From Devriesea agamarum (GTDB lineage Bacteria > Actinomycetota > Actinomycetes > Actinomycetales > Dermabacteraceae): DNA of 64,000 bases. Below, in pieces: positions 4,487 through 35,684 of the stretch. The notes beneath the pieces are model-generated. The model was not told where the DNA came from. It did not search any database and saw nothing but the letters and a program-made list of their open reading frames with translations. The stretch lies in contig NZ_LN849456.1 of the NCBI RefSeq assembly GCF_900070355.1, positions 558,001-622,000 of the forward strand. Reading direction: 5' to 3'. Position 1 is the first letter of the stretch, and each line of letters starts with the position of its first letter. A program made the translations under genes and the position numbers.

Positions 4487-4673
4487 TTAGCGCACGTCAC
4501 GGCGCCACCCAGTATAGGGACGCCATACCGATTGCCCGAGAAGGTCGTGAGACACACGACACGAAAGACGCTTGCTCCTCGCCGGTCGTGAAAATTTTGT
4601 CCGCGCCTACGTGCTCTGCCTCTCCCAGAGACGGCACTATTCCAGCTACCTTTGAAACCCACGACGTATTAGC

Positions 4674-5879
4674 GTGGTTCCATCCCTGTCCCTGCGTTCG
4701 TTCGAGGTCCATGTGCGTTCCTGGATGCGAGTCCAGTTTTTCGTTTTCTACTTCAGCTGGGTGACCTTCCTGTCCTATTGGGGTATTTACCTCAACGCCC
4801 GAGGTTTCAATCCCACTGAAATCGGCATGTCCATCACTGCTTCGCTCGTGACCCGAGGGTTAGCAGTCGCCGTACTGTTCCCTCTCGTCAACCGGCACGT
4901 CGGCATTTTGCGGTTAACGCGCGCGCTCGGATGGTTGAGCCTTGCCTGCGGAATTCTGTTCGTCCCCGATATGGGGTATGTATCGCTGATCGTGGTCTCC
5001 TCCGCCTTCGGCATTTTGTATCCGACCATGATGCCTGTGCTTGAGACCATCGGGACGCTCGGCGCCCAGCGTGGCCATTTTGCGTACGGCCCGACTCGTC
5101 TGTTCGGTTCAGCAGGGTTTGTGATCGGCACAATTGTCAACGCATTGGTGTCCGAATACTTCGGCAATGAAAGTCTGATCTGGCTGTTTTTATTCGGGTG
5201 CGCCGCGATGTCTGTGCTGGCGCTGCGCCCGCTGCGTGATGAGGTGCTCGCGCAGCAAACGTCTGGGCCACTCGGTTCGTGGGGTGAACTCGTCGGCAGG
5301 CGCCTTTTCTGGGTGGTTTTGATCATCGTGATCGTGACCCAAAGCGCGCACGGCGCGTATTACGCCTTCGGCGCCTTGCGGCTTCAGGATCTTGGGATTA
5401 GTGACCAGCTCATCGGCATCACGCTCATTGTGGCGCCGATTAGCGAAATGGTGGTCTTTCAGTTATCGGGTCGAAAAGCCGATTCCATGTCCATCCCCTG
5501 GCTGCTGGGCGTTGCCGCGGCCGCAGGTGTTCTGAGGTGGCTAGTGTGGGCCTTCAGCACCAATGCTGGTCTGCTTCTGGCTTCCCAGACGCTCCACGGG
5601 CTCACATTCGCTCTCATGCAAATTGGGTTCCTTCAGTTCCTGCGTCGCCATGTTCCGCCACATTTGGTCACGCCCGCTCAAAGTGCCTACGCCGCACTAG
5701 GCACCGGTATAGGAACCGCCGCAGCCACCGCTCTGGCCGGAGTATTTTTCCAAACTTCCCCCACGCTGACCTTCGTACTCATGGCCGGGATCTCCGCCCT
5801 TGGAGTTATTGCGTCCCCGTTCCTTATCTCTCCGCTGCGCACCGCCACGCATCAGGAGCTGTCTTTACCCGAAAGGTAG
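4674..5879 (+). CDS. MFS transporter, HcaT/NagP-like
   Basis: A 401-residue hydrophobic protein with about 12 membrane segments. The N-terminal block FVFYFSWVTFLSYWGIYLN and the regularly spaced Gly/Pro-rich helices match the MFS_1-like group that includes E. coli HcaT (3-phenylpropionate transporter). The substrate is unknown. The GTG at 4674 gives a 16-residue lead before the first helix; a GTG or ATG inside the next 50 bases is an equally possible start. It is divergent from sufS, sharing a ~200 bp upstream region. Confidence 0.82.
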   Translation: MVPSLSLRSFEVHVRSWMRVQFFVFYFSWVTFLSYWGIYLNARGFNPTEIGMSITASLVTRGLAVAVLFPLVNRHVGILRLTRALGWLSLACGILFVPDMGYVSLIVVSSAFGILYPTMMPVLETIGTLGAQRGHFAYGPTRLFGSAGFVIGTIVNALVSEYFGNESLIWLFLFGCAAMSVLALRPLRDEVLAQQTSGPLGSWGELVGRRLFWVVLIIVIVTQSAHGAYYAFGALRLQDLGISDQLIGITLIVAPISEMVVFQLSGRKADSMSIPWLLGVAAAAGVLRWLVWAFSTNAGLLLASQTLHGLTFALMQIGFLQFLRRHVPPHLVTPAQSAYAALGTGIGTAAATALAGVFFQTSPTLTFVLMAGISALGVIASPFLISPLRTATHQELSLPER

Positions 5880-6936: not shown

Positions 6937-8835
6937 CTACGAAGCTCGGGTATCTCCATGTCGCGATATCTGCGACAGCGTGAGCGAGGCCCCCGAGATG
7001 TGTGAGATCAAGGCGATTACGCCCACCAAGACGAATGCTAAAGCCGTCACCGGAGCCGCTGAGGCAAGCGCTGTGAGAACCGAGGTTCCGTTGGCAGTTG
7101 CGAATCTAGATCCCAGGGCGATGAGCACCGTAGCGATCAGAAGACCTGCGGTGACCTGGATTATTAGCACTTCCGTTCCCATCGTGACAAGAATCCGTCG
7201 CCCACCGACGCCGAGGCTTTTCAGCACGGAAAACTCGCGGCGCCGCGCCAGGTTCCCGCTGATTGCTGACTGAATCAAGCTGAGCACGCTCATCACATAA
7301 ATCGTGCCAAATATTCCGATATTAGAACGATAGGTATTGGCAGAACGCGTCTGTTCTAGCTGCTGAATATATTCAGATTTATTCATGACGTCGGCTTGAA
7401 TATGTGCAGCGTGTAGCGTGTTGAGGGCCCGTTGAGGAGTGATCGGGGCTGCAAATACTGTCACGGGCAGCGTAGCCGGGTTAGGGACGAACCTGGATAC
7501 TTGGGACCAGTCCATAAAGACCCCTTCCAGCCACGAGTCGTTCATCACCGCAACTACCCGCAGGGTGACCGTCCCACCTTCGTTATTACGGATCGTAAGA
7601 GAGTCACCAATTTTGGCGCCACTCACACTGGTAGCCACATTGGTTCCACCGACGGCTCCCAGATCGCCCGCGACCACCTGCTGCTTTTGCAGTGTTGCCA
7701 CATGGGTAGGGTCGGCAAAGTACACCCTTCTAGTTTTTCCGGAGACATCGCGCTGCACAGACGCTAACCGAGCAATGCGGTCACTTTTCGATTTTAGGGC
7801 TTGAAATGCTCGATCAGCCTGAGGTGCCCCCATCACCGATGTGATGGCGCTCGAACTTATCCTCTGCCGATAGATATCTTCTCGAATCTGCTGGTCAGGA
7901 GCATTCGCGACCAGAAAACCGCCAAAGATACCCACGGCAACGATGACCGGAGTTGCCATGCGGGCAAAACGGATTCGATCTTTGCTCGCTCGTTGCGCAG
8001 CAAGGAGGCCAGGACCGGGCGCCACCGCTCCAACGCATCGCCCAATAATCCACGCACCCACCGGGATGATGAGCGGAGCAATAGCGAACAACGGCACAAC
8101 TGCTAAAAGTGGCAGAGCGATGATCAGCGACGAACCAAAAGCGTCCGCGCTCCCGAGCACTACGCAAAGCAATCCGGCAACGACGATGACGATCCGGATG
8201 GATACGCCCCACCAGGATGGGCGCGGAGCTAGCGCATTCATCGAGCCAAGAAGATCTCCGCGAGTCATGCTGCGAACAGCAACCAGCCCGGCTATTCCTG
8301 TCGTCAGCGTCGCAGCCACCGTCACAATCAGCGCCGCCGCAAGAGAAAAACCAAACTGTACCTGCACCCCAGAGCCGAAGAATCCAATGGCTTGAAGCCC
8401 TGCAAAGAGCGGACCGGCTAGCAAAACTCCGACAACCGATGATGGCAGTGCTACCGCGAAGCCCATGACCAGGCATTCCAAAAACACCATCCGCGATAAG
8501 CGCCAACGGTTCGCCCCAACCAGGCGCATCAGAGCGAACTCGCGTTGCCGGAACCCCACCACCTGTTTCACAGCAGAGCACATGAGGAATCCACTAATCA
8601 CGATGACCAAACCACTTAAAACTGAGAGAAGTCCCCTAAATGAGGTCAGCTGAATCGCAACATCTTGCGGCGACACGCCCGCAACGTGAACGTTATGAGG
8701 GTGGGAGAAGGCATCAACGAGGCCCGCTTGAGCCGACGCGATGAGGACCGTGAAGCAGAGAGTGACGATGCATCCCGTATACAACGCAATGTGTTTGCGA
8801 AGGAGCCTAATAGATAGCCGCATTATTTCGAGCAT
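6937..8835 (-). CDS. ABC transporter permease with two FtsX domains
   Basis: A 632-residue permease. An N-terminal membrane helix (about 15-35) precedes a first FtsX-type block of helices (about 60-200, with the QVVGFRQREFALMRLVGANRWRL-type coupling region) and further helices to ~285. A large extracellular part (about 300-500) follows, then a final FtsX block (about 515-625) with SVLKSLGVGGRRI as the second coupling helix. This is the layout of BceB-type peptide-sensing or detoxifying exporters. No two-component system lies next to it, so that role is not shown. The start overlaps the end of the ATPase gene by 13 bases. Confidence 0.85.
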   Translation of the reverse strand: MLEIMRLSIRLLRKHIALYTGCIVTLCFTVLIASAQAGLVDAFSHPHNVHVAGVSPQDVAIQLTSFRGLLSVLSGLVIVISGFLMCSAVKQVVGFRQREFALMRLVGANRWRLSRMVFLECLVMGFAVALPSSVVGVLLAGPLFAGLQAIGFFGSGVQVQFGFSLAAALIVTVAATLTTGIAGLVAVRSMTRGDLLGSMNALAPRPSWWGVSIRIVIVVAGLLCVVLGSADAFGSSLIIALPLLAVVPLFAIAPLIIPVGAWIIGRCVGAVAPGPGLLAAQRASKDRIRFARMATPVIVAVGIFGGFLVANAPDQQIREDIYRQRISSSAITSVMGAPQADRAFQALKSKSDRIARLASVQRDVSGKTRRVYFADPTHVATLQKQQVVAGDLGAVGGTNVATSVSGAKIGDSLTIRNNEGGTVTLRVVAVMNDSWLEGVFMDWSQVSRFVPNPATLPVTVFAAPITPQRALNTLHAAHIQADVMNKSEYIQQLEQTRSANTYRSNIGIFGTIYVMSVLSLIQSAISGNLARRREFSVLKSLGVGGRRILVTMGTEVLIIQVTAGLLIATVLIALGSRFATANGTSVLTALASAAPVTALAFVLVGVIALISHISGASLTLSQISRHGDTRAS

Positions 8836-30199: not shown

Positions 30200-30372
30200 T
30201 AAAATAGAATAGTCCAGTCAGATATCGATCAAGCGCAGAACTGTAGGGCTCTCGGCAAGGGCGACAAAACATGGCTCGCGCCAGCCAATGGTCCCGTACT
30301 GAAACGGGCATACATCGATGCGATGGGGACTGTTTCCTGACCTCACGAATAGACACTTCTCCCGACCTAATC
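30200..30372 (+). pseudogene. Degraded tyrosine integrase remnant
   Basis: Bases ~30235-30350 align by eye with the coding strand of the integrase at ~32583-32705. Shared words in the same order are CTCGGCAAGGG, AAAAC.(T/C)GGCTCG, TCCCGTACT.(A/G)AAC, GGGG.CTGTTTCCTG/GGTGGCTATTTCCTGG and CACTTCTCCCG/CACCTCTCCCC. No frame is open across it, and the C-terminal catalytic third is missing: the match jumps from there directly to the region upstream of the HTH gene. This is a decayed second copy of the phage-type integrase. Confidence 0.6.
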
Positions 30373-30374
30373 TC

Positions 30375-30655
30375 ACGCTATTCACACTTGCAGGAAATCA
30401 GATACATATCTGACATGTTTTATAGGGAATCTATCCAGTAAAGGGGTATACCTGAAATATACACTCCCACTATCCAACCAAGAACTGCCTGTGAATATGC
30501 GGAACCTGGACAGACGGAACTAGACATCAAAGCCGATATCTCGCCGGCTACCAGTGTCCCCGAGAACGGGCACAGCATCCCCGCCGGGAAGAGATAGAGA
30601 TTCGTAAAAGCGAGACACAGGGCATGAGCCATGTGCTACATGATGGTTACTTGTC
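30375..30655 (+). pseudogene. Degraded copy of HTH gene and its upstream region
   Basis: The block from CGCTATTCACACTTGCA (30373-) matches CGTTATTCACGCTTGCA ahead of the HTH gene at 33010. The match continues through its coding part: ACTGCCTGTGAATATGCGGA / GCGCGAGAGTATGCGGA, GGACAGACGGAACTAG / GGCAGACTGAACTAG, CCGAGAACGGGCACAGC in both. The frame has a TAA near codon 9 and lacks conserved helix residues. It is a decayed paralogue carried by an older element next to the present attachment site. Confidence 0.65.
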
Positions 30656-30709: not shown

Positions 30710-31270
30710 ATGAATAATCGACTCAAATCGGTAGGCTTCTGGGCACGAAACCATCTTAAAACCGCGTCCACGGTAGCTGGATGCCTCGGTTGCGGTGGCA
30801 CGCTCTTTGTTTCTATGTTCACACTGCTCCTCATCAGTGCGCTCCTAGTCCCGACACCGACCGCCTCCCCATCACCGACTGTATCCCCATCACCAATCGT
30901 CTCGCCATCACCGACCGTCTCGCCATCACCTGCACCCACGCCATTGGTAGAGACACCCGCGCCATCGACACCGACTCCCACACCATCAGTGGGCACTCCC
31001 CCACCACCGGTGTCGACTCTCCCACAGGAGGTCCCTGCTCCGATTGACCCGAAACCTAACCCTGGGCGAGCACCAGTTGCCCCGAGGCCCAATCCCGCAC
31101 CCAAGGAACCTACCGCGCCACACCCCAAACCTAGTCCGGATCGGTCCGAAAAAGTTTTCGTGAAGCCTGGAGCATTTTGCTCAGGCGGCGTCGGAGTCAC
31201 CAAGAAAGGGAAGCCTATGGTCTGCAAACCCGCAAAAGATGGGCGTCTGCGCTGGCAAAAGGTTGGTTAG
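30710..31270 (+). CDS. Membrane-anchored Ser/Pro/Thr-rich protein
   Basis: A 186-residue protein with a membrane helix at about 22-48, then a long Pro/Ser/Thr linker (SPSPTVSPSPIVSPSP and related) and a compact cationic C-terminal domain, FVKPGAFCSGGVGVTKKGK...VCKPAKDGRLRW (about 150-186) with two cysteines. It looks like a tethered surface protein whose linker may be glycosylated. The linker is encoded by an 18-base tandem repeat (four units from 30866). Similar C-terminal domains occur in actinobacterial and phage proteins of unknown role. It lies in the decayed zone but is itself intact. Confidence 0.7.
   Translation: MNNRLKSVGFWARNHLKTASTVAGCLGCGGTLFVSMFTLLLISALLVPTPTASPSPTVSPSPIVSPSPTVSPSPAPTPLVETPAPSTPTPTPSVGTPPPPVSTLPQEVPAPIDPKPNPGRAPVAPRPNPAPKEPTAPHPKPSPDRSEKVFVKPGAFCSGGVGVTKKGKPMVCKPAKDGRLRWQKVG
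30866..30937 (+). repeat. 18-bp tandem repeat, four units
   Basis: Units TC(C/G)CCATCACC followed by seven variable bases start at 30866, 30884, 30902 and 30920. They encode the SPSP(T/I)V linker of the protein above and could change in number by slippage. Confidence 0.8.
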
Positions 31271-31740: not shown

Positions 31741-32121
31741 TTATCGATCCAGGGGAGTGGGGAATCCCCCGAATTTACGAAGGCAGACCGACTCCGCAAA
31801 GCACGTGAGTGTGCTGGACTTGAACAGGCTGAGCTTGCCGAAAGGCTAGGAGTGGCTCGCAACACTGTGAGCACTGCCGAGCGTGGGGTGAACTCCCCCA
31901 GGCGCATCATAGTGCGCGCGTGGGCATTAGCAACTGGTGTACCGCTGTACTGGATAGAAACAGGAAGGGTCCCGTCACCTGATGGCGACGGGACCCATAT
32001 GCTCCCGCGGTTGGACTCGAACCAACAACCGTTCGGTTACAAGTTCTTGCAGGTCAGACCGATAACGAAAAGATCACGATCATATGCAGCTCGACCGGTA
32101 AGGACTCCTGTCGCTGCATGA
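31741..32121 (+). pseudogene. HTH paralogue without start codon
   Basis: The frame after a TGA at 31738-31740 reads GESPEFTKADRLRKARECAG, ELAERLGVARNTVSTAERGV and WALATGVPLYWIETG, clearly the same family as the gene at 33866. No ATG, GTG or TTG lies upstream in frame, and at the 3' end the frame runs through the tRNA fragment (LPRLDSNQQP) without the stop its relatives have. It is best read as a remnant left of the attachment site, though an internal GTG at 31852 is possible. Confidence 0.65.
32001..32046 (-). other. tRNA 3'-half: probable left attachment site (attL)
   Basis: The minus strand reads from an anticodon-loop-like CTTGTAA into a perfect T-arm (GTTGG, TTCGAGT, CCAAC; plus-strand 32010-32026) and an acceptor 3' strand CGCGGGAG. 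No D-arm or 5' half follows at higher coordinates. The loop suggests tRNA-Thr(UGU). An orphan tRNA 3' half directly upstream of an integrase is the normal mark of a phage attachment site. Confidence 0.7.
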
Positions 32122-32128
32122 TCCCCAC

Positions 32129-32920
32129 ATGAATGAAAACTGGATAGATGCTGAGCGCCATTACGTCATTGCCCTCAGAGCAGCGGGCAGAGCAGACGGA
32201 ACGATCAGGATTCACCGACACTACCTAAGACAGATCCAGCGCCACGTCCGTAGTCCCTGGTCAGCGCAACATTCCGACCTTCTAAAGGTTCTCTCAAATC
32301 GGTTCTGGGAAGCGGAAACGCGCAAAAGTGCCCGATCCGTCATATGTTCATTTTACCGATGGGGGCACGGTACCGGACGGATCGAAACAGATCCAAGTGT
32401 GGGATTGCCCACAGTTCACGTTCCGCCGAGATGTGCCCGACCGACACCGGAGGACATCGTGCGCAAGGCTCTATCTCTCGCAGACCGGCGTCTAGACCTC
32501 ATGATCCGGGCAGGCGCTTACCACGGACTGAGGGCATGTGAGATATCCCGCATTCATCACAACGACCTCGAAGGCGAGGAGTTGCGAGTACTCGGCAAGG
32601 GAGGGAAAACGCGGCTCGTACCCATCAATGATCCCGTACTAGAACATGCGATACGCCGCTGCGAGGGGTGGCTATTTCCTGGTCGCACAGACGGGCACCT
32701 CTCCCCCGGCCACGTTACCAAACTCCTGAGCGAGGCCATCCCCGGAATCTGGACGGCCCACACCCTGCGCCATAGGTACGGTACGAAGGTCTATGAAGGT
32801 GCTGGGGACATTCTTGTGGTCGCGGAACTACTCGGCCACGCCCGGCTCGACACCACTAGGCGTTATGTGCGAATGTCGCGCGATAAGGTTCGCGAGGCCG
32901 CGCGGGCAGCGGCGGCCTAG
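32129..32920 (+). CDS. int: Prophage tyrosine integrase
   Basis: A 263-residue tyrosine recombinase, short for the family because the arm-type DNA-binding domain is minimal. Catalytic residues are all present: R135 (GLRACEI), K160 (GKGGKTR), H211 and R214 (HTLRHRYGT), H237 (LLGHARLDTT) and the nucleophile Y246 (RRYVRMS). It starts ~80 bases from the tRNA 3'-half and would integrate the prophage there. It is on the plus strand, opposite to the lytic genes. Confidence 0.93.
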   Translation: MNENWIDAERHYVIALRAAGRADGTIRIHRHYLRQIQRHVRSPWSAQHSDLLKVLSNRFWEAETRKSARSVICSFYRWGHGTGRIETDPSVGLPTVHVPPRCARPTPEDIVRKALSLADRRLDLMIRAGAYHGLRACEISRIHHNDLEGEELRVLGKGGKTRLVPINDPVLEHAIRRCEGWLFPGRTDGHLSPGHVTKLLSEAIPGIWTAHTLRHRYGTKVYEGAGDILVVAELLGHARLDTTRRYVRMSRDKVREAARAAAA

Positions 32921-33009
32921 ATGTATGGCGAACTCCACGCTCCTCCCCCACTCCAAGTCGAGCGTTATTCACGCTTGCATGAGATCAGACAAACGTCTAC
33001 CGTTTTTTC

Positions 33010-33255
33010 ATGGAAAATCTACCCGGGACAGGGGTTGTGCCCGAAATGAACACGCTCACGAATCGTTTGCGGGCAGCGCGAGAGTATGCGGACCTTGGGC
33101 AGACTGAACTAGCCATTAAGGCCGGTATCTCACGGGCCACCATCAGTGCCGCCGAGAACGGGCACAGCGCCCCATCTAGCGCAACGATCACAGTCTGGGC
33201 ATTGGCCTGTGGCGTTGATGCTTGTTGGTTAAGTACAGGGAGACTTAAGCCGTAG
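33010..33255 (+). CDS. Xre-type HTH protein, array copy 1
   Basis: An 81-residue Cro/CI-like protein: TNRLRAAREYADLGQTELAI and AGISRATISAAENGH form the helix-turn-helix (about residues 17-51), and WALACGVDACWLSTG is the conserved tail shared by the whole array. First of four tandem paralogues reading away from the integrase. It could be the immunity repressor or a relative of it. Its older, degraded copy is at 30.4-30.6 kb. Confidence 0.85.
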   Translation: MENLPGTGVVPEMNTLTNRLRAAREYADLGQTELAIKAGISRATISAAENGHSAPSSATITVWALACGVDACWLSTGRLKP

Positions 33256-33294
33256 CCAAGAGTTAGCTGACTCTACGAAGGATAGGAATAACAA

Positions 33295-33564
33295 GTGTCC
33301 GATGATCGAAACCGAGGAGTGATACCCCAGATCAACACTCTTCCAGTGCGCATACGTGCCGCGCGCGAGTACGCCGGATTGGAACAAGGTGAACTGGCCG
33401 ATAAGGCTGGGGTGGCACGAGGAACGCTAGGGGCGGCAGAGCGTGGCTACAGGACGCCGACTAAACGCACTCTCACCTTGATTGCCTGGGCCTGCGGCGT
33501 TGATTCGCATTGGCTTAGAACGGGCCGACCGCAACCCTGTAATGATGGTTTAAATCATAACTAG
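33295..33564 (+). CDS. Xre-type HTH protein, array copy 2
   Basis: An 89-residue protein with the same layout: PVRIRAAREYAGLEQGELAD, recognition region AGVARGTLGAAERGY, tail WACGVDSHWLRTG and a short extra C-terminus. GTG start behind AAGGATAGGA; gap of 39 bases from copy 1. The recognition helix differs from copy 1 in nearly every exposed position, so it should read a different operator. Confidence 0.85.
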   Translation: MSDDRNRGVIPQINTLPVRIRAAREYAGLEQGELADKAGVARGTLGAAERGYRTPTKRTLTLIAWACGVDSHWLRTGRPQPCNDGLNHN

Positions 33565-33592
33565 CTAAATTTCTACCAGATAGGACTATCGA

Positions 33593-33841
33593 GTGTTTGA
33601 CGACCGGAATAAGGGGGTAATCCTTCAGATTAATACACTCCCGATACGTCTGCGAGCGGCGCGCGAGTATGCAAATTTTAGCCAGGAAGGCCTTGCGGAG
33701 CGGGCTGGAATTGGCATGGCCACCGTAAGCCGTGCAGAACGGGGCGACGGAAGGCCGACGCGCGCAACCATCAGGTTGTGGGCGTGGGCCTGTGGAATTG
33801 ACGCAGAATGGCTCAGAACAGGAAAGCCAGAAATTGGTTAA
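33593..33841 (+). CDS. Xre-type HTH protein, array copy 3
   Basis: An 82-residue protein starting MFDDRNKGVILQINTLPIRL, close to copy 2 in its first 20 residues, then diverging: recognition region AGIGMATVSRAERGD, tail WACGIDAEWLRTG. GTG start behind a GATAGGA site; 28 bases after copy 2. The shared N-terminus and changed DNA-reading helix suggest duplication followed by selection for new specificity. Confidence 0.85.
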   Translation: MFDDRNKGVILQINTLPIRLRAAREYANFSQEGLAERAGIGMATVSRAERGDGRPTRATIRLWAWACGIDAEWLRTGKPEIG

Positions 33842-33865
33842 CCCTCTACGCGACAGGAACGTTGG

Positions 33866-34117
33866 GTGCCTAATAACCTCACCGAAGGGACGATCCCTAA
33901 CTTCACCAAGGCAGACCGGCTGCGCAAGGCGCGTGAACTCTTGGGGCTAGATCAAAGCGCCATGGCAATCCGCTTGGGTGTCTCGCGCGGAACCGTGAGC
34001 AATGCAGAGAGAGGGGCTGTTGAGCCTCGCCGAACTGTCGTGCTGGCGTGGGCGTTAGTTACCGGCGTTTCGTTGCACTGGCTTGAGACTGGCAAGGAAG
34101 CCCCAGAGGACGATTGA
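33866..34117 (+). CDS. Xre-type HTH protein, array copy 4
   Basis: An 83-residue protein: FTKADRLRKARELLGLDQSA, recognition region LGVSRGTVSNAERGA, tail WALVTGVSLHWLETG. It is closest to the start-less remnant at 31741. GTG start, 24 bases after copy 3. It closes the array; a bidirectional terminator follows at 34262. Confidence 0.85.
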   Translation: MPNNLTEGTIPNFTKADRLRKARELLGLDQSAMAIRLGVSRGTVSNAERGAVEPRRTVVLAWALVTGVSLHWLETGKEAPEDD

Positions 34118-34261
34118 CACGCTCCCTCATGCCACCACCCAACGATACTGCGCGCTAGACATGTCCTCGCTGAGGTCTACTGTCGAACGGGCGGCGTGAT
34201 GCTGGAACGTATTGCCCTGGCACTGGGTGAGGGTTTGGACTATCCATAGCGCAGCGTAAAC

Positions 34262-34305
34262 AAAAAGAACCCCCACGGTTACGTCTAACCGTAGGGGTTC
34301 TTTTT
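34262..34305. terminator. Bidirectional terminator, copy 1
   Basis: AAAAAGAACCCC and GGGGTTCTTTTT form the arms of a long stem with ACGGTT/AACCGT inside and a six-base loop. The A-run on one side and T-run on the other make it work both ways: for the HTH array (plus) and the fic gene (minus). A near-identical copy lies at 35641. Confidence 0.85.
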
Positions 34306-34313
34306 CAAGCCGT

Positions 34314-35504
34314 CTAGTTTGGCAGCTCTGGCGAATACTGCTGTAAAGGCATAAATGCATTCATAATAAACGCGCAAGGGATGTATCCGCCTTTGCGCTT
34401 TACGACAAGGCCAAGCTTCTCTAGCGCATTCAGGTCGCGAGCTATAGTGCGGTCTTCGCGCCCAGCGTACATCTCGGCTATTCGGGTAGTAAGATGCCGC
34501 ATTGATTTTTTAGGCGTCTCTTCATCGATTGGGAGCGCTAACACCAAATCTCGCCGACGCTCTTTGGTGGGCCCGGAAGGTTCGTTACGAAGACGCTCAT
34601 GTACATAGTTAATCCATGCGATACGAACCTGATGAGCCTTTACGGTGTCAATGTGTTCGCGAAGCATATCGACATACCCCTCAACCGCGTAGAGAATAAA
34701 GCCGTCCAGGTCGTTTTCTCGTGACGCCGCTGCAAGTCGTTCATAATAGCGGGTCCGGGTGCGATTATAGAAATCAGAAAGCAGATTCGACGCAATCCAG
34801 GGAACAACGCCTGAGTGCGCTAGAATCGCCACCTCAACAAGTCGGGCGGTGCGTCCGTTGCCATCTCCAAAGGGGTGAATCCATACAAGGTAAAGATGGG
34901 CAAGGAGGGCAGCGAACACGGCGTTATAGAATCGCATGTCATCCGACTGGGATTTATCTTGTGATGGAGCAATGAAAGCTTCATTAAGCCATGAACATAA
35001 CTTGCTCATGAGGAAATCAAGCTCTTCCGGCGGTGCCCCCCGATAAATGTTGCCGACAATTAAATTGGTGGTCGTGTACTCGCCAGGCGCTACATGACCA
35101 TCATGCTCAAGGCCCTGTAAGACGCTGGCATTTTGTTCTTTAATCCATGCTTCAGAGAGTCGGAATCCGTTCCCTTGTCGCCCCGATTCGTCAATGACTG
35201 CGAGTGCTTTAACGATATTTCGTATTTCGACTTCGAGATATTCCTGCGATGCAGGGAGCCTGTGCCCCCTATTGATAATTGCGTCGACATCCTCTTCGGA
35301 CAGAGCGTTTCCCTCAATCGCAGTAGTGGCTAGCGCACCTTTGGTGAGAACCACTGAGGCCAAAGCGTTTGCCAGTGCAGGGGGTAGCGGAATACCTGCG
35401 AGGTGCTGGTTCTTAGAGAACGCTTCGCCGAGCTTTGCCCACAACATGCTGACCTTCGGGGCGTACTGGAAGGTCAGCCATTGATGCGTTTCCATGTACC
35501 TCAT
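34314..35504 (-). CDS. Fic family protein with internal inhibitory helix and C-terminal wHTH
   Basis: About 396 residues from the ATG at 35504 (a longer frame opens at 35552, and a shorter start at 35495 has a GAGG site). The Fic motif HPFGDGNGRTAR is complete (226-237 in the long numbering), so it should transfer AMP from ATP to a protein target. TTAIEG (76-81) matches the [S/T]xxxE[G/N] inhibitory motif placed before the Fic core, meaning it restrains itself. The last ~90 residues look like a winged helix. It sits as a single gene between two copies of one terminator, like a phage accessory ('moron') gene. Confidence 0.9.
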   Translation of the reverse strand: MRYMETHQWLTFQYAPKVSMLWAKLGEAFSKNQHLAGIPLPPALANALASVVLTKGALATTAIEGNALSEEDVDAIINRGHRLPASQEYLEVEIRNIVKALAVIDESGRQGNGFRLSEAWIKEQNASVLQGLEHDGHVAPGEYTTTNLIVGNIYRGAPPEELDFLMSKLCSWLNEAFIAPSQDKSQSDDMRFYNAVFAALLAHLYLVWIHPFGDGNGRTARLVEVAILAHSGVVPWIASNLLSDFYNRTRTRYYERLAAASRENDLDGFILYAVEGYVDMLREHIDTVKAHQVRIAWINYVHERLRNEPSGPTKERRRDLVLALPIDEETPKKSMRHLTTRIAEMYAGREDRTIARDLNALEKLGLVVKRKGGYIPCAFIMNAFMPLQQYSPELPN

Positions 35505-35640
35505 GCAGCAAGAATATCCAACTTGGCCGAGTTTTGGCAATGCGTTTGGCATGTCAACACCGGCGGCCGAGGTCGCCTGCGTGCGGATTTCTGGCCGCCA
35601 AGATTGCGCTTACATATAAATCGCACCATTATGCAGACAC

Positions 35641-35684
35641 AAAAAGAACCCCCGCGGTTACGTCTAACCGTGGGGGAAACTTTT
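35641..35684. terminator. Terminator-like repeat, copy 2
   Basis: AAAAAGAACCCCC, then CGGTTACGTCTAACCG, then GGGGGAAACTTTT repeats the element at 34262 with few changes; the stem is still strong. It lies just upstream of fic and would end minus-strand transcripts from the gene at 35789. The pair brackets the fic gene. Confidence 0.75.

Follow-up and report, generated by a model that had tools for sequence, protein, structure and literature searches.

What are four small HTH proteins doing head to tail behind the integrase of a single prophage, when the textbook rule is one repressor per temperate phage? The array lies in a 64,000-nucleotide stretch of the complete 2.96 Mb genome of Devriesea agamarum (G000:C1:558001-622000), the whole of which is called the window here. 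It stands just inside attL of a prophage integrated at tRNA-Asn and directly follows the tyrosine integrase. The 85 bp direct repeat at the two ends of this element (Table 1) gives it a length of about 42 kb, and no further att core is present in the window or in the fetched right flank. The answer favoured below is that the four genes, H1 to H4, probably form a bank of stable repressors, whose predicted expression and DNA binding would provide immunity to several heteroimmune phages. The anatomy, family, constraint and nearest relatives of these genes are legible in the DNA itself and are taken up before this answer is weighed.

Table 1. Features of the array, its prophage and the neighbouring remnants (window positions)
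Feature	Position	Strand	Description
Decayed integrase C-terminal part and H1 with upstream region	30203-30585	+	Earlier element, same site
R0, repressor remnant of earlier element	31744-31950	+	Without usual start codon; frame runs through core into resident tag
attL core	31951-32035		85 bp identical to attR
3' remnant of virion-form R1 gene	32036-32121	+	Codes ...SYAARPVRTPVAA (stop); putative ssrA-like degradation tag, split from R1 by integration
Tyrosine integrase	32129-32920	+	263 aa, C-terminus RAAAA; PF00589 E 1e-16
Candidate array promoter TTGCAT-17-TACCGT	32975-33009	+	Putative, read by eye; ends at H1 ATG (leaderless)
H1	33010-33255	+	81 aa; tail-less BPs-family repressor; HTH_3 E 8e-10, phrog_2328 E 3e-19
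H2	33295-33564	+	89 aa; closest relative is repressor of another tRNA-Asn phage (L079/L182)
H3	33593-33841	+	82 aa; predicted contact residues G-M-A-R
H4	33866-34117	+	83 aa; closest relative is repressor of prophage G025
Hairpin with T runs, probable terminator for H4 and Fic gene	34262-34305		Near-copy at 35639-35676
R1, the prophage's own repressor, fifth paralogue	extrapolated 73793-74095, attR end beyond window	+	3' end contains att core
attR core	extrapolated 74006-74090, beyond window		Inside 3' end of R1; holds 3' end of intact tRNA-Asn

The four reading frames are as an earlier note on this DNA had described them: 81-89 aa HTH proteins, head to tail and all on the + strand, with gaps of 39, 28 and 24 bp. 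Each lies above the HTH_3 cut-off in a profile search (E 8e-10 to 1e-11), and the best phage family for each is phrog_2328, 'transcriptional repressor' (E 7e-17 to 2e-23), an assignment far beyond chance. By sequence profile (E 1e-7) they have the same small HTH fold as CI and Cro of phage 434 (1r69, 2cro), which, in contrast, has one CI and one Cro and no att-coupled switch. Their recognition helices diverge just as the earlier note quoted them. The shared tail that it reported, WA.(A/V)CGVD..WL.TG, is found in H1 to H3 (with CGID in H3) but not in H4, which carries WALVTGVSLHWLETG and groups with R0 and R1. AGGA motifs resembling ribosome-binding sites accompany the four intact, closely spaced genes, and the candidate promoter before H1 has a recognisable counterpart in the conserved upstream region of the decayed copy at 30.38 kb.

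R1 lies outside the window and so beyond the view of the earlier reader, who saw the window only. R1 shares phrog_2328 with H1-H4, is divergent from a small HTH_17 protein placed where related phages have xis/cro, and has a reading frame that enters the attachment core, so that the 85 bp core overlaps its 3' end at attR. The lysogen form is 100 aa long and ends ...PRLDSNQQPFD (stop). Joining the left part of R1 to the right part of attL reconstructs a virion form of 127 aa that ends ...RPVRTPVAA (stop), and in this reconstructed circle the integrase starts 7 bp past that end. The separated 3' remnant is now in frame with R0. In 30 related virion-form repressors upstream of an integrase, the last two residues are AA in 20 and the last residue is A in 26.

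A precedent exists in mycobacteriophage BPs (genes rep 33, int 32 and 34), where an ssrA-like tag leads to degradation of the 136 aa virion repressor gp33 and the prophage form, at 103 aa, is stable (PMC4557955). R1 belongs to the same repressor family and has the core inside its 3' end, a longer, AA-ending virion form, the integrase downstream and a small divergent HTH gene upstream. The anatomy of the prophage and R1 is thus that of BPs-type integration-dependent immunity, with tag degradation and repression of the early promoter predicted. The nearest integrases and repressors in the phage collection likewise belong to the BPs group and to Gordonia phages with a BPs-type layout. These relatives have one repressor and nothing similar after int, whereas the Devriesea prophage has four tail-less paralogues there.

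How these paralogues differ from R1 is seen at their ends. H1-H4 begin as full-length repressors do but end 4-12 residues past a W(I/L)xTG motif, before the att-derived segment and tag would begin. Core and tag are absent from the 3' ends of all four, and no core lies near any of them. Because they lack both, they are best described from sequence as relatives of the switch repressor rather than switch repressors themselves, and they resemble a permanently fixed version of the short, stable prophage form.

Comparison with 105 distinct repressor sequences from public loci places two members of the array beside repressors of two different phages. For H2 the nearest is the att-tailed repressor on IMG/VR contigs 3300045244_000020 and 3300048934_000040, at 78% identity against 60% for its best sibling, H3. 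The H2 recognition segment VARGTLGAAERG is identical to that of the L079 phage repressor, which also enters a tRNA-Asn-like core (GCTCCCGCGGCTGGACTTGAACCAGCAACCGTTCG); the integrase of that phage is the closest found to the prophage's own (58%). H4 shares 71% of its residues with the repressor of prophage G025 (IMG/VR 2866054653), 67% with R0 and 60% with R1; the identity between R0 and R1 is 73%. None of the same 105 sequences resembles H1 or H3 clearly more than their siblings do (58-63%), and single searches of viral contigs with H1, H3 and H4, as well as alignment A4 against genome contigs, returned no closer relatives. The suggestion that each copy is closest to a different phage's repressor is therefore borne out for H2 and H4 and, for want of relatives, may or may not extend to H1 and H3, while its opposite, that all copies are closest to each other, is excluded.

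In the tree, H2 pairs with the L182 phage repressor (100/87) within the H1-H3 group, H4 with the G025 repressor (99/68) and R0 with R1 (91/87). By AU test, monophyly of H1-H4 is borderline rejected (p 0.047), while a clade of H1-H3 that leaves out L182 is compatible with the data (p 0.42), so these three may be in-place duplicates. A simple, recent tandem duplication of one gene was considered and discarded: synonymous sites are saturated between members, and H4 falls with R0, R1 and G025 rather than with H1-H3. The H2 and L079 repressors differ by a dN of 0.16 and a dS of about 1.8, the H4 and G025 repressors by 0.23 and about 2.7, and synonymous sites are saturated in most of the remaining pairs. 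This pattern indicates array genes that are old and maintained as proteins, which argues for the bank.

The residues that would read DNA, at positions which we take to correspond to those of 434 repressor, are predicted to be SRAA in H1, ARGA in H2, GMAR in H3, SRGN in H4, SRRS in R1 and ARNT in R0. Since they differ, a shared operator is not expected, and by this analogy H1-H4, R1 and R0 should have separate operators. H4 has the same four predicted residues as the G025 repressor. In a control with pairs of phage repressors, all four residues were common in 7% of pairs at about 60% identity and in half at about 75-76%. The contact-residue match of H2 is therefore expected from its identity level, and that of H4 is more telling.

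A predicted operator could be defined for H2. The repressor-xis region of the L079 phage contains TCAAGGTTGA, TCAACCTTGA and TCTAGGTTGA, and a further exact copy of the dyad lies about 58 bp before the gene starting at 7324. The dyad, TCAASSTTGA, thus occurs at 3 exact sites in 8.5 kb of this phage, against 0.01 expected, and H2 should, from sequence, bind it. The array-bearing prophage contains no exact copy, and one-mismatch matches in the window are near chance. H2 therefore probably acts on invaders, an argument that applies to H2 only. Palindrome scans for the operators of R1, G025 and H1 produced nothing convincing, the candidates for R1 and G025 being weak; TCCCYTAGGA occurs twice in the R1-xis region, once within the xis promoter spacer, which is roughly chance level. 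Such a scan is insensitive when a single site exists, as in the BPs group. The 10-mer CGCTTGCATG is common to the -35 region of the candidate H1 promoter (32972-32981) and the G025 repressor-xis region (L069:2943-2952), with about 0.02 such sharings expected by chance on our own estimate; it is possibly an H4 site or a coincidence.

The site also preserves traces of earlier occupants. The remnants to which the earlier note pointed, at 30.4 and 31.7 kb, are both real. The former consists of an integrase piece at 30.20-30.36 kb followed by H1 with its upstream region at 30.38-30.58 kb (about 71% DNA identity), from which it follows that the earlier element had the same int-H1 order. A related element with this order would therefore once have occupied the site, and R0, abutting the core, together with the older int-H1 remnant, is compatible with repeated integration here. 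Between the decayed int-H1 and R0 lies a gene on the + strand (30710-31270) for a proline-rich protein of 186 aa that has a hydrophobic stretch at its N-terminus and matches no Pfam family.

A comparable arrangement is known from the tandem prophages of M. abscessus T36, where several elements with such a switch share one tRNA and repressor remnants and tags lie at the att junctions (PMC9934374). In that strain both prophages are complete and their repressors are unrelated and lie in different frames, whereas here one complete prophage adjoins decayed neighbours and R0 is in frame with the resident tag. The authors of that study argue that, since the att core is common to both elements, tandem events need repressors whose frames differ (PMC9934374). 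R0 appears to show the in-frame outcome, next to an element that has already decayed. Repeated integration followed by deletion could move a repressor behind int, and a wider scheme can be sketched from this: each entering integration-dependent phage leaves its repressor by the tRNA-Asn core, a deletion strips it of att and tag and leaves it behind int, and stable repressors against past competitors accumulate in the prophage lineage as an inherited and growing collection. Such an accretive memory of immunity is conceivable and rather doubtful.

The arrangement of these elements suggests how the bank would work. R1 would control the prophage: its virion form would carry the degradation tag at the C-terminus, and stability would be confined to the form that integration has shortened. 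H1-H4, free of att and tag, would be stable regardless of integration, would be expressed in the lysogen from the promoter after int and would bind the operators of other phages that use this type of switch, giving immunity to heteroimmune phages. The att-side position, R0 and the decayed int-H1 suggest that they were gathered by repeated integration and deletion at tRNA-Asn. Several facts speak for this reading, in which expression, binding, immunity and the route of acquisition are inferred: the matches of H2 and H4 to repressors of two different phages, the agreement of R1 and its tag change with the 103 and 136 aa forms of BPs gp33 in a family whose members H1-H4 are all cut before the att segment, the older int-H1 element beside the array, and an adjoining SoFic-like defence gene. 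Against it count the want of a matching foreign phage for H1 and H3, the AU result for H1-H3 and the presence of the array in one genome. The adjoining gene (34314-35552, - strand) encodes a Fic/DOC protein resembling the SoFic defence model (PADLOC E 2e-53) and lies between two near-identical hairpin terminators at 34260-34297 and 35639-35676, as would a cargo gene inserted beside the array.

Other functions for H1-H4 have to be set against this one. They may be internal regulators, secondary or Cro-like, acting on promoters of their own prophage or on int and the array itself. They do sit in the prophage beside int, the BPs repressor binds five regions of its own genome (PMC4557955), and CGCTTGCATG would fit H4 acting on the array promoter. 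The predicted H2 operator, however, is without an exact copy in the prophage, and the closest relatives of H2 and H4 are master repressors from other phages rather than regulators in the same place. Related phages, moreover, do without such genes: in 80 related integrase loci on viral contigs, int is never followed by a same-strand gene of the repressor family. Internal regulation is accordingly unlikely.

It is quite improbable that H1-H4 are passengers, leftover repressors of earlier elements at the tRNA with no present function. Their neighbours R0 and the 30.4 kb copy are indeed decayed leftovers of the same kind, but leftovers that old should be broken, as R0 and the decayed H1 are, and the array consists of four intact, close-spaced genes with AGGA motifs and a dN far below dS. 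A back-up of self-immunity, in which H1-H4 help R1 to hold the prophage or to set up lysogeny before integration, would exploit the virion-form order R1-int-H1-H4, which makes early production of the copies possible, and the copies might outlast the anti-repressor that the prophage encodes (ANT E 2e-33). The predicted contact residues of H1-H4 are all unlike the SRRS of R1, which makes the same operator unlikely, and a stable early repressor of the phage's own operators would defeat an integration-dependent switch; this explanation is very hard to credit.

The heterotypic bank, if that is what the array is, has no close parallel in the material searched. At strict thresholds, and with only the best candidates per genome scored in the large samples, no second strong match appeared in any other genome of the family (47), order (396) or class (395) samples or of two further family samples (400 and 213), and the array is known from one genome. 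A description of several repressors behind one integrase was not found in the literature searched, a scope mostly outside subscription journals. Genes 43/44 of the Gordonia phage CarolAnn resemble the array in being linked to the lysogen, next to the repressor and able to stop other phages, but they are Rex-like and work through a membrane protein and a sensor (PMC6426606), whereas the candidates here are DNA-binding repressors. A more distant prophage in the same family, G044, has a tail-less 85 aa HTH gene 0.7 kb from its att-tailed repressor (L075:3694-3951 and 4671-5036), possibly a version of the arrangement with a single member, located at the opposite end of the prophage.

The Devriesea prophage thus seems to keep repressors of other phages in a form that is stable without integration, a little-studied route by which a lysogen could be immune to several heteroimmune phages. 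If this is true, it would be possible to read immunity spectra from sequence, and arrays of this kind would record phages that shared an attachment site. The predicted H2 operator is a defined dyad of 10 bp, and the phage sequence that contains it is known.

Several other features of the host and prophage were observed. The host genome encodes another integrase of this family, 37% identical, on the - strand (L073:4074-4910; G000:C1:902103-902858), with no close repressor relative near it. A 399 aa reading frame near attR, at first taken for a second integrase, spans four repeats resembling sRNA-Xcc1 and is not such a gene. These are four tandem structured-RNA copies on the - strand between xis and the early genes (L009:8318-9340; extrapolated window 72318-73340), with a period of about 360 bp. 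They score 41-52 bits (E 1e-5 to 4e-8), just below the Rfam sRNA-Xcc1 gathering cut-off of 53, and one copy folds with a z of -3.9. The early region also holds, on the - strand, a bank of small proteins, several of them Bro-N-like by eye (L009:891-6053; extrapolated window 64.9-70.1 kb); two of these have no PHROG match. The same region contains the full Bro-N/KilAC anti-repressor (L009:3886-4737), and the several repressors and several possible anti-repressors of this one phage may belong together.
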